DNA of 39,418 nucleotides, taken from positions 1 to 39,418 of IMG/VR virus record IMGVR_UViG_3300037502_001156; one strand, given 5' to 3'. The translations under genes were made by a program, and so were the position numbers. Position 1 is the first letter of the stretch. Each line of letters begins with the position of its first letter. The stretch comes from a virus. Below are positions 31,609 to 36,801 of this stretch, piece by piece. The notes beneath the pieces are model-generated. The model was not told the DNA's origin. It did no database searches and saw only the letters and a program-made list of their open reading frames with translations.

Positions 31609-31725
31609 TCACCATATCTCTACCCCTCCTCGCTTTGCCTTCCACTCTGGTGGCGGCACGTGCGCCCACTCACGAAGTACGTCGGTTCTGCGTTTCTTCC
31701 ACCAGTCAATGAACCAACGGATCAT
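31609..31725 (-). CDS. Tiny Trp-rich basic protein (38 aa)
   Basis: ATG 31725 overlaps the stop of the upstream gene (ATGA). The frame runs exactly to a stop ten bases before the glycosyltransferase ATG, filling an otherwise empty gap. The product begins MIRWFIDWWKKRR and ends GGVEIW: six Trp residues in 38 and a cluster of Lys/Arg. An amphipathic, membrane-active or peptide-inhibitor role is possible. Tight packing is the main support, and expression remains to be shown. Confidence 0.45.
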   Translation of the reverse strand: MIRWFIDWWKKRRTDVLREWAHVPPPEWKAKRGGVEIW

Positions 31726-32219
31726 ACGTTCGCTCTCACTTCTTTCTCCGGCTTGCCTTGGTACTTAACTTCTACTTTGGCTACCGCGTCCCAAACCTCG
31801 GACAACTCAATCAGGGTGTCGTACTTGCGACGGCACGCTCGAAGCTCAATGAGTGCAGTCTGAATCAGATTCAACCGCAACGCCTCATCGCTCATCACAT
31901 CGTTGATATGCCGATAGCCGGGAAAGCCAGAGCCAGCCTTGCGATCTTCAATCAGCGAGACCAACGCACGCACCGGAGGCTTCTGATCATCGACCGGCTT
32001 CAACACAAACAGGCGAATGATCCTGCTCGCATACGAAAGCCTCGCCTGCTCCGCCGCATGACTGTCATCCCATAGCCCTTGCTTATCAAAGTCCTCCCAT
32101 AATGCCGAGTCCGTGTTGGCTCGGGCAAAGGCCACGATCTGTTCCTGTTTAAGAAGCCCCCCGTGTACTACACGGAGGGCGTCCAGTTCCTGATTTACAC
32201 GCTCACGCAGCGACGACAT
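31722..32219 (-). CDS. Conserved phage protein (165 aa), function unknown
   Basis: From ATG 32219 (GAGG six bases upstream) the protein begins MSSLRERVNQELDAL and continues GGLLKQEQIVAFAR, GLWDDSHAAEQARLSYASR and IIRLFVLKP. The pattern 'L...viafAr......WDD..Aa...r...ar.lIr' is one I recall from many phage and prophage proteins near recombination genes, with no known role. Helical content is high. It overlaps the upstream gene by 17 bases; these two are often found together, in my recollection. Confidence 0.65.
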   Translation of the reverse strand: MSSLRERVNQELDALRVVHGGLLKQEQIVAFARANTDSALWEDFDKQGLWDDSHAAEQARLSYASRIIRLFVLKPVDDQKPPVRALVSLIEDRKAGSGFPGYRHINDVMSDEALRLNLIQTALIELRACRRKYDTLIELSEVWDAVAKVEVKYQGKPEKEVRANV

Positions 32220-32862
32220 CGACCACCTCGCCTTGAATGTCAAACAAACCCCAGCCCATGCCCGCACTATTCTTAGAGTCCGGGCGACCTTCACCGATAC
32301 CTACCTGCTGACCGACTCGCATCATCAAGTTGATGATGTCGTTGTGGCTGAACATATCGCCGTCGTATCGCACACGCACGGTCATCTTCCAGTTCTTCCA
32401 CATCGGACGCACGCGGATATCGACCGAACCGTTGTCGTTGCGAGCATACGTCGTGTGACGTTGCGGCTCACCAAAGATCCGAATCAACGGCGTCTCATCA
32501 TCCACATCGTAACCATCGGCCAACACAAACGCAGCAAGCTTTGCGTGCGTCATCTTGTACCCGACCGTACGACAGGCCGAGATCATCGCGTTTCTGAATG
32601 CACCCGCTGGCACACCGGACCAACCTTCGTGGGTCAAGTGCATTGCACCCGAATACACTTCATCAAAGTTCTTCGGCTCACGCTTTTTCTTGCCGGTCGC
32701 ACGAGACCCTTCCTTCTGCGTGGCAATGATCTGCTCACGCGCTTTGCGACTGAACTTGTTAATCACAAGCGGAGCCGCGCCCACAATGTTGATCTCTGCA
32801 ATCCGAAACTTCGGAGCCGGGATCTCAACCTTTTCAACTTTCGCATTTTCCTTCGTAGCCAT
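32203..32862 (-). CDS. Conserved phage protein (219 aa) with Gly-rich C-terminal loop
   Basis: ATG 32862 is preceded by GAGG. A Lys-rich N-terminus (about 1-20) leads to a mixed alpha/beta core with GVPAGAFRNAMISACR, FGEPQRHTTYAR, then VGQQVGIGEGRPDS and MGWGLFDI. The 'GIGExRP...GxGxF' ending resembles Gly-rich loops in RAMP-like and some ssDNA-binding folds; this is a visual similarity only. The neighbouring 165-residue protein is coupled by overlap. Its start lies just downstream of the pentamer array, making it the first gene transcribed after that array. Confidence 0.65.
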   Translation of the reverse strand: MATKENAKVEKVEIPAPKFRIAEINIVGAAPLVINKFSRKAREQIIATQKEGSRATGKKKREPKNFDEVYSGAMHLTHEGWSGVPAGAFRNAMISACRTVGYKMTHAKLAAFVLADGYDVDDETPLIRIFGEPQRHTTYARNDNGSVDIRVRPMWKNWKMTVRVRYDGDMFSHNDIINLMMRVGQQVGIGEGRPDSKNSAGMGWGLFDIQGEVVDVVAA

Positions 32863-32884: not shown

Positions 32885-32911
32885 TAAACACACTTCAATA
32901 AACACACTTCA
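32885..32911. repeat. 13-bp tandem direct repeat before the 219-residue gene
   Basis: TAAACACACTTCA occurs at 32885-32897 and again at 32899-32911, one base apart. In the leftward sense it reads TGAAGTGTGTTTA twice, 23-48 bases upstream of the gene's ATG. Two identical sites spaced 14 bases apart could be an operator or a duplicated promoter element. Confidence 0.6.
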
Positions 32912-32920
32912 CTCAACCAA

Positions 32921-32938
32921 GCCCGAACGATTCCGGGC
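32921..32938. other. Hairpin between the pentamer array and the direct repeats
   Basis: GCCCG (32921-32925) pairs with CGGGC (32934-32938), with extra AA/TT pairing inside. No T-run follows on either strand, so it is not a typical terminator. It marks the boundary of the pentamer array on its downstream side for leftward transcription. Confidence 0.4.
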
Positions 32939-33455
32939 CTTTCCAAACCGTGCCACACCTAGCGTTGCCTGCGTTGCGATGCTGAACCAAACCTCGGTCC
33001 GCCCAACCTTTCGCTGCCATGCCTGCGATGCCATGCCTCTCCAAACCAAGCCGCACCGTGCGCTGCCTGCGATGCCTTACCACGCCGTGCCTCGCCGGAC
33101 GCTACCCGACCGCGACCCGCCTGACCAAGCCTGCCGTATCTCACCGTGCGTTGCCCTATCACACCTGTCCATGCCTTGCCTGCGATGCCTCACCAAGCCT
33201 ATCCGCGCCGCACGCCGACTTGCCTCGCCTGCGATTCCTTACCATGCCTTGCTCAACCGGACCTTGCCAGACGAGTCCACGCCTTACCCGGCGGAGCCTG
33301 ACCGCGCCTGCGATGCCTCACCACACCTGACCAGACCGCACCCAACTCATCCACGCCTGCGATGCCCAACCACACCGGGACATACCCCGCGTAGCCGCGC
33401 CGCGACGGGCCTTGCCTGCGATACCGGACCTAGCCAATCCCTACTTAACCACGCC
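32931..33455. repeat. Pentamer-periodic array: about 100 NNCCN units reset by GCGA tetramers
   Basis: This non-coding region is written in five-base steps in which bases 3-4 are usually CC on the plus strand. At intervals a four-base GCGA shifts the register by one: GCGA at 32976, 33025, 33069, 33182, 33231, 33310, 33359 and 33418, with a variant GCCG at 33133. Between resets lie 9, 8, 12, 9, 9, 15, 9 and 11 pentamers. Resets are flanked by GCCT and most often TGCC, giving a core CCTGCGATGCC. Five is not a multiple of three, so the ORF of 209 codons crossing it is spurious. On the leftward sense strand it reads GG every five bases with GGCATCGCAGG cores. Function unknown. Confidence 0.9.
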
Positions 33456-33462
33456 TGCCTTG

Positions 33463-33840
33463 TTACGCTCGCTTCCTCGCAGCGATCTCACGCTGCAAAT
33501 ACCACAGAGCTTTTTCCAGATCCTCAATCGGATCACCCTTCTTGCCCGCACGGGATACGTACTTCACTACGTTGCCCAAACGGTAATTCAAATCTTTGGC
33601 TTCGATGAAGTCGATGGTCTCAACGCCACCCGTCTTGTAATGCGGGGGATGATTAACAAGATCGGTAGCAGCCAGTAATTTCATGGCCGCATCTTTGTAT
33701 TGGGGTTGGATAAATAATTTCGTCGGCTTGCTCTCAATCTCATCCATCGCCTGCTTCACTTCCTTCACAGCCTTCACGCGGTCAACCCCCAACTCAACAT
33801 CCCGAATCGCTTTCATCAATCTTGATTTCGACTTACTCAT
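33463..33840 (-). CDS. DUF3310 protein, T7 gp1.7-like nucleotide kinase family
   Basis: The second half of this 125-residue protein has VNHPPHYKTGGVETIDFIEA followed by NVVKYVSRAGKKG and LEKALWYLQREI, the full DUF3310 signature. In T7 the gp1.7 protein with this domain phosphorylates dGMP and dTMP, so a role in nucleotide supply is likely. The N-terminal 60 residues are helical and lysine-rich and not part of the domain. It overlaps the VRR-NUC gene by 8 bases. The pentamer array starts just after its stop. Confidence 0.88.
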   Translation of the reverse strand: MSKSKSRLMKAIRDVELGVDRVKAVKEVKQAMDEIESKPTKLFIQPQYKDAAMKLLAATDLVNHPPHYKTGGVETIDFIEAKDLNYRLGNVVKYVSRAGKKGDPIEDLEKALWYLQREIAARKRA

Positions 33841-36727: not shown

Positions 36728-36739
36728 CCCCCTAATCGC

Positions 36740-36801
36740 GCTCGCACCAAACTTTTTTTAAACCCCGCTCGCACCAAACTTTTTTAAACCCCGCTCGCAC
36801 C
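36740..36801 (-). repeat. Tandem 26-27 bp repeats with GGTGCGAGC and A-tracts upstream of the promoter
   Basis: Unit 1 (36740-36766, 27 bp) and unit 2 (36767-36792, 26 bp) differ by one T in a T-run; a third start of the unit begins at 36793. Each carries the GGTGCGAGC motif and an A-tract in the leftward sense. Spacing of 26-28 bp between successive motifs, including the one in the promoter spacer, is about 2.5 helical turns. Confidence 0.85.

Follow-up and report, generated by a model that had tools for sequence, protein, structure and literature searches.

The DNA examined here is the IMG/VR virus record IMGVR_UViG_3300037502_001156, of which the whole stretch of 39,418 nucleotides is called the window. 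It raises the question of what an array of pentamers with one-base phase resets is doing at 32933-33459, on the transcribed minus strand, where it lies in the gap between two leftward genes. We regard this region, with about ten units of GGYNN pentamers split by GGCA/CGCA tetramers, as very probably the guide RNA (vrRNA) array of a phage-carried VIPR system. VIPR (Viral Interference Programmable Repeat) is a phage-encoded, CRISPR-like system described in a 2026 preprint; its main text reports a Vipr protein, the vap genes vap1-6, and vrRNAs of 9-16 YNNGG repeats, the NN letters of which recognise DNA with a one-base skip (PMC13142463). Vipr and a vrRNA form a ribonucleoprotein that binds double-stranded DNA and represses (PMC13142463). 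Ribonucleoprotein formation, DNA binding and repression are taken from that source; the present analysis concerns the array, the family and fold of Vipr, the strand, the association of the two, the in-frame match of one unit, and the start of the guide at the reset.

The gap holding the array extends from 33463 (the stop codon of a DUF3310 gene) to 32862 (the start of the vipr gene). The 5' end of the array, 33459, lies four bases past the stop codon of the upstream gene, and its 3' end is at 32933. An earlier note on the letters of the window had described a periodic array here, and the periodicity is real: identity at lag 5 was 0.456, higher than in any of 1000 dinucleotide-preserving shuffles (0.295 ± 0.019; z 8.5). 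Long-range autocorrelation was also observed, with z 11.2 at lag 49 and z 10.0 at lag 98 against such shuffles. The word CCTGCGATGCC, with at most one mismatch, occurred seven times in the array and twice elsewhere, with 0.94 occurrences expected in the whole window. The distances of 49, 44, 113, 49, 79, 49 and 59 between resets given in the earlier note were exact, the GCGA cores being at 32976, 33025, 33069, 33182, 33231, 33310, 33359 and 33418; GCGA is also found at 33112 and 33402, neither of which is a reset. The guess that the distance of 113 nucleotides hides a second reset was correct as well, since 33132-33135 reads GGCA instead of CGCA. The reset is a tetramer, though its word is not GCGA, as had been proposed: the true word is CCTG on the plus strand and GGCA on the transcribed minus strand, and "GCGA" arises where the pentamer next to CCTG has CG in place of CC.

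On the minus strand, each run of (GG-Y-NN)n leads into the tetramer GGCA, which gives units of 5n+4 nucleotides. The window was parsed into ten units of 7 to 15 pentamers, and 647 complete units of relatives had 6-16 (mode 9), although the length of a unit need not equal that of a vrRNA. Eight of the nine resets between units read CGCA. From the 5' end, the units are unit 1 (33421-33455, 7 pentamers), unit 2 (33362-33416, 11), unit 3 (33313-33357, 9), unit 4 (33234-33308, 15), unit 5 (33185-33229, 9), unit 6 (33136-33180, 9), unit 7 (33072-33131, 12), unit 8 (33028-33067, 8), unit 9 (32974-33023, 10, degenerate near its 3' end) and unit 10 (32935-32969, 7, truncated by a hairpin). That hairpin, GGCCCGGAAUCGUUCGGGCU (32919-32938, minus strand, -11.6 kcal/mol), stands at the 3' end of the array. 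In the near relative L366, a run of TTTTTT comes after this hairpin, giving it the form of an intrinsic terminator.

The same rule was found in other genomes. Scans of IMG/VR with a core pattern and with a bare ten-pentamer pattern, together with a scan of bacterial genomes, gave 122 distinct arrays with one grammar; many actinobacterial hits of the pattern scan resemble chance matches in high-GC coding sequence and are without Vipr. Over 77 arrays, the pentamer was GG-C(72%)-N-N and the tetramer GGCA (C 89%, A 81%), and the reset spacings, all of the form 5n+4, ranked 49>44>54>59>39>64. BLAST for similar arrays in named phages found none, because the arrays have the rule in common and not the letters. 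Arrays usually begin 4 to 20 bases past a stop codon. In near relatives of the window the ends of the array are kept, and whole units between resets are gained, lost and reordered. In the wider clade (L369-L373 and L375), the array lies downstream of the phrog_15946 gene, between that gene and vipr, or upstream of vipr; its position is thus not fixed.

Among the intergenic arrays with genes on both sides, the array was G-sense with respect to both genes in 72 and C-sense with respect to both in 3 (p 4e-18, with a codon-based gene caller), and the leftward G-rich strand is accordingly the sense strand, as had been claimed. This strict orientation, and the recurrence of GG each five bases with three-base gaps on the sense strand, would also fit a track of two-tetrad G-quadruplexes or an R-loop on the G-rich transcript or displaced strand. 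We consider such a track highly improbable, because it leaves unexplained the reset word GGCA and, as described below, the linkage to a RAMP family, the kept NN letters and the integrase spelling of unit 4. Moreover, the earlier suggestion of a folded transcript was not borne out: the minimum free energy (MFE) did not differ from that of pentamer permutations (mean z -0.06 ± 0.20), which indicates no selection on secondary structure, though MFE does not model G-quadruplexes. Translation into a repeat protein (G-x-A-x-x) has in its favour long stop-free frames on both strands, such as an open reading frame (ORF) of 209 amino acids at 32979-33608 on the plus strand. Stop codons were, however, not avoided in comparison with pentamer permutations (median p 0.71 on the G strand and 0.76 on the C strand), and CC or GG each five bases accounts for the open frames; the chance of a translated repeat is negligible. 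Since stops are not avoided and the MFE is no lower than in permutations, both a coding repeat and a conventionally folded RNA can be dismissed. No match to the array was found in Rfam, the window contained no CRISPR-type direct repeats, and no cas genes were present among the window proteins searched.

The gene next to the array encodes a protein of 219 amino acids (32203-32862, minus strand; phrog_4652). The profile of this family against the PDB gave "SUSP1 Vipr protein" (chain 36pp_D) with E=1.4e-35, and SUSP1 Vipr, its gene being read from the genome record, matched the profile built here with E=2.4e-46. The AlphaFold model of the window protein had a pLDDT of 93.8, and its top Foldseek matches were Csm3/Cmr and other Cas7 RAMPs (best E 8.6e-6). 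A conserved GxGxxRP...GxF motif was seen in the family alignment. As judged from profile and model, the protein is a Vipr RAMP homologue, that is, a minimal RAMP with an RRM core and a G-loop, and it is predicted to bind guide RNA.

When arrays were found by pattern alone, the adjacent genes included phrog_4652 (upstream in 24 of 63, downstream in 8 of 49) and phrog_15946 (21 of 63 and 18 of 49, respectively). Because sampling by arrays is biased, Vipr loci were also fetched by protein alone. In this protein-first sample, 62 of the 67 distinct loci had a G-sense array within 2.5 kb and none had a stronger C-sense array, while in the shuffled control arrays appeared in 0 of 80 loci. Searching with the protein also revealed Vipr in the named phages Cyanophage Cy-LDV1, Mycobacterium Quico, Gordonia Ecliptus and Pipp, and Pseudomonas LESphi2. 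Homologues annotated "hypothetical protein" occur in 25 Mycobacterium and 5 Gordonia phage records and in Cyanophage Cy-LDV1. In BK059895 (L456), NC_028751 (L457), OP820472 (L458) and MN234179 (L459), a reset-type array stands beside the Vipr gene in all four. The Mycobacterium, Gordonia and Cyanophage carriers offer culturable test systems, and we suggest that regions of "GGCAN" repeats in phages, and the repeat ORFs predicted there, are guide arrays.

These associations bear on a track of double-stranded DNA for origin, packaging or partition, bound by a multimeric protein, for which the regular period and the intergenic location would speak. We hold this to be very doubtful indeed, given the strand bias of 72 to 3, the varying place of arrays, which may flank vipr and vap or lie between them, and the fact that unit 4 decodes to a protein motif. 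Two roles listed in the earlier note, a replication origin and a packaging or entry site, each leave the strand bias, the RAMP link in 62 of 67 loci and the integrase-spelling unit unexplained. Of the other roles listed there, a noncoding RNA is most likely correct in the form of a guide RNA, and the proposed binding track for a multimeric protein would most likely be a RAMP-coated guide RNA.

Subsequently to vipr on the minus strand lies a gene for a helical protein of 165 amino acids (31722-32219; assigned by a PHROG match to phrog_15946), which was present in 64 of the 67 Vipr loci of the protein-first sample. Among arrays near Vipr, 84 had resets and the phrog_15946 gene, 16 resets without the gene, 3 few resets with the gene, and 31 neither; a high reset rate was thus associated with the gene (Fisher p 2e-15, the contigs being not fully independent). 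The protein had no PDB match, and SUSP1 vap did not match phrog_15946. It is a candidate for the accessory gene (Vap) of this subtype and probably takes part in how the reset-delimited array is handled; its correlation with resets gives a protein of unassigned function a testable role. The last NN before a reset had the lowest entropy (3.46 of 4 bits) and was mostly AT, and AT likewise precedes the tail in several SUSP1 vrRNAs; this suggests that each guide has the last pentamer and the tetramer as its 3' end. Vipr-linked arrays with no or few minus-one resets were seen at L146, L160, L164, L196, L200 and L171, several with six-base (plus-one) shifts, and these loci mostly lack phrog_15946. 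Perhaps the arrays with plus-one shifts follow a second stagger grammar with another accessory.

The earlier note had held that the pentamer letters vary and that selection or a copying mechanism acts on the period. Selection on the period is upheld. The idea that the letters are free to vary is contradicted, since the NN letters carry information and are kept between orthologous units. We compared homologous units, namely two between the window and L366, one between L366 and L367, and one between the window and L367, and found changes at 3 of 86 NN letters and 15 of 129 GGY letters (p 0.04). In unit 2, for example, all NN letters are the same in L366, and three GGY letters have changed. In the window's clade, the random-looking letters therefore appear to be the kept ones. 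A breakpoint analysis over all arrays was discarded, being swamped by convergent pentamers.

What such letters might spell is seen in unit 4. Its slots 1-11, read antisense with a one-base skip, give HGFR[S][T]FRDWA, box II of tyrosine integrases. A pattern of 18 fixed bases with this skip, leaving open the two slots variable in L366, was scanned against IMG/VR viral contigs and hit 118 stretches, where about one chance match was expected, an estimate based on the length of the pattern and on a 16-base pattern that gave 6 hits. All 118 were in frame on the opposite strand of an ORF (median 405 amino acids), with the skipped base at the wobble position, and read HGFRSTFRDWA. Each of six ORFs checked had Arm-DNA-bind_3 and Phage_int_M domains and five also Phage_integrase, identifying them as tyrosine integrases. 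The window's own spelling was matched exactly (22 of 22 letters) in one of the 118. The match comprises slots 1-11 counted from the reset, so the guide begins at the first pentamer after it. Unit 4 of L366 differs at two NN slots, and these changes amount to Arg AGR->CGN and Ser->Thr at the same motif codons; the re-spelling of one integrase motif in a relative hints at an arms race at the codon level. By its letters, unit 4 appears to have as its target the motif HGFRSTFRDWA in the tyrosine integrases that other (pro)phages carry. This suggests that the purpose is integrase repression, by which the phage would switch off rivals.

Further units gave weaker leads. One L507 unit spells the Walker A box GEPGIGKS, present in AAA ATPases of several phage contigs; an L514 unit spells Walker A of AAA_24 ATPases; and an L562 unit, antisense, spells the serine-recombinase motif YVRVST. 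All three were picked post hoc. Unit C of the relatives has a reading in DUF5906 (DEALFAGDK) that is suggestive only; its best match, in a relative of Bacillus phages, was judged to be chance. Comparison of motif regular expressions with shuffled guides serves as an illustration and not as a test, the expressions having been chosen after the matches were seen. A guide of Mycobacterium phage Quico had no match in 301 genomes. A first global test of the skip rule on local sequence was dominated by low-complexity chance matches. A later count gave skip 1 a slight excess, with 157 hits where the other skips had 103-125, and this did not reach significance when shuffled guides were compared in coding sequence.

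Several results weigh against a VIPR array. A target was read for only one of the ten units, and slots 12-15 of that unit do not match integrases. The target scan with unit 2 gave 6 hits, none of which extends and none convincing, and the global test of the skip rule with several hundred guides against a small local coding set was not above shuffled guides. Outside the window's clade, the preference for keeping NN over GGY lacked significance (pooled p 0.36), and the hairpin of the window is without a T run. The nine units without a read target also leave room for a VIPR array whose units mostly act on the host or regulate the phage itself, VIPR being able to repress any gene. We think this unlikely: the integrases that unit 4 matches are typical of (pro)phages, none of the ten units has a good match within the window, and the targets in the main text of the preprint are mostly rival elements (PMC13142463).

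If the region is a VIPR guide array, it would be transcribed leftward with the early/replication genes, the transcript perhaps ending at the hairpin at 32919-32938, and would be divided at the resets into guides, presumably with the help of the phrog_15946 protein. Vipr subunits would coat each unit, one per pentamer, with GGY held and NN exposed. The NN letters would base-pair with DNA two at a time, each two set apart from the next by one unpaired base, as a rule the wobble base of a codon, and the target gene would be repressed; the GGCA tetramer would mark the boundary of consecutive guides. The unit-4 guide would then repress integrase genes of rival temperate phages. A broader reading is tentative, the balance tipping slightly towards doubt: the reset would be punctuation read or made by phrog_15946, with ten guides in one RNA, and the guides would target the most conserved motifs of rivals (integrase HGFRSTFRDWA, AAA_24/AAA_5 Walker A, YVRVS, DUF5906 DEALFAGDK). 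If this were true, each guide would hit a whole protein family, because synonymous changes fall mostly on the skipped base.

The upstream gene (33463-33816, minus strand), with DUF3310 and a phage "nucleotide kinase" PHROG, is probably a flank and not part of VIPR. Past the array and ahead of the vipr start codon lies a perfect tandem repeat, TAAACACACTTCAA (32885-32911, 1.9 copies), and similar AT-rich words occur there in relatives. Elsewhere in the window, a tandem repeat of 26-27 bp, CGCTCGCACCAAACTTTTTTTAAACCC (36739-36801, 2.4 copies), is found in a gene-poor stretch, and the gene at 28906-29451 matches a ferredoxin PHROG (phrog_3704, E 8e-22); the DNA polymerase gene comes directly downstream of it in the leftward operon.

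Binding by a ring like that of TRAP (trp RNA-binding attenuation protein), which recognises NAGNN repeats, was considered first and was dropped after the profile match to SUSP1 Vipr. The array shares with TRAP sites a five-nucleotide period in RNA, made of a triplet and a two-nucleotide spacer, whereas the protein is unrelated and TRAP spacers are without information. The class 1 CRISPR-Cas effectors (Csm3/Cmr4/Cas7) resemble Vipr in fold, and in them RAMP subunits likewise coat a guide with periodic unpaired bases. They differ in having a six-nucleotide period instead of five and guide letters unbroken by a fixed GGY, and the window lacks their repeats and, among the proteins searched, their cas genes.

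VIPR as such is already published as a preprint (PMC13142463). The closest likeness is to the type II VIPR of Escherichia phage SUSP1 as described there: a Vipr RAMP of the same family, phage-borne tandem GGY/NN pentamers with hypervariable NN in intergenic positions around vipr, a last NN that is often AT (before the SUSP1 tail, before the window's resets), and a one-base-skip spelling aimed at other mobile elements, found in the window for one unit of ten. SUSP1 has separate vrRNAs, and each vrRNA of SUSP1, like those of the P. fulva system, is described as carrying a structured 3' tail (PMC13142463); the window has tail-less units set head to tail with a tetramer reset between them, and its phrog_15946 is not matched by SUSP1 vap. 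The missing tails do not appear to bar membership, since another architecture, "staggered arrays with overlapping vrRNAs", is mentioned in one sentence and fig. S18 of the preprint, and the tail seems not to define all types. According to its main text, RNA sequencing confirmed only the other two architectures, hammerhead-interspersed and single vrRNA (PMC13142463). Set beside that sentence of the main text, the window is alike in that its array is continuous and shifts phase from guide to guide, and it is probably of this staggered architecture. The preprint's main text is silent on how the resets are read, on their link with phrog_15946 and on the integrase target. To the staggered arrays the window thus adds a reading rule, by which each guide starts with the pentamer that follows a GGCA reset, and the example of a natural guide whose letters spell out an integrase motif.
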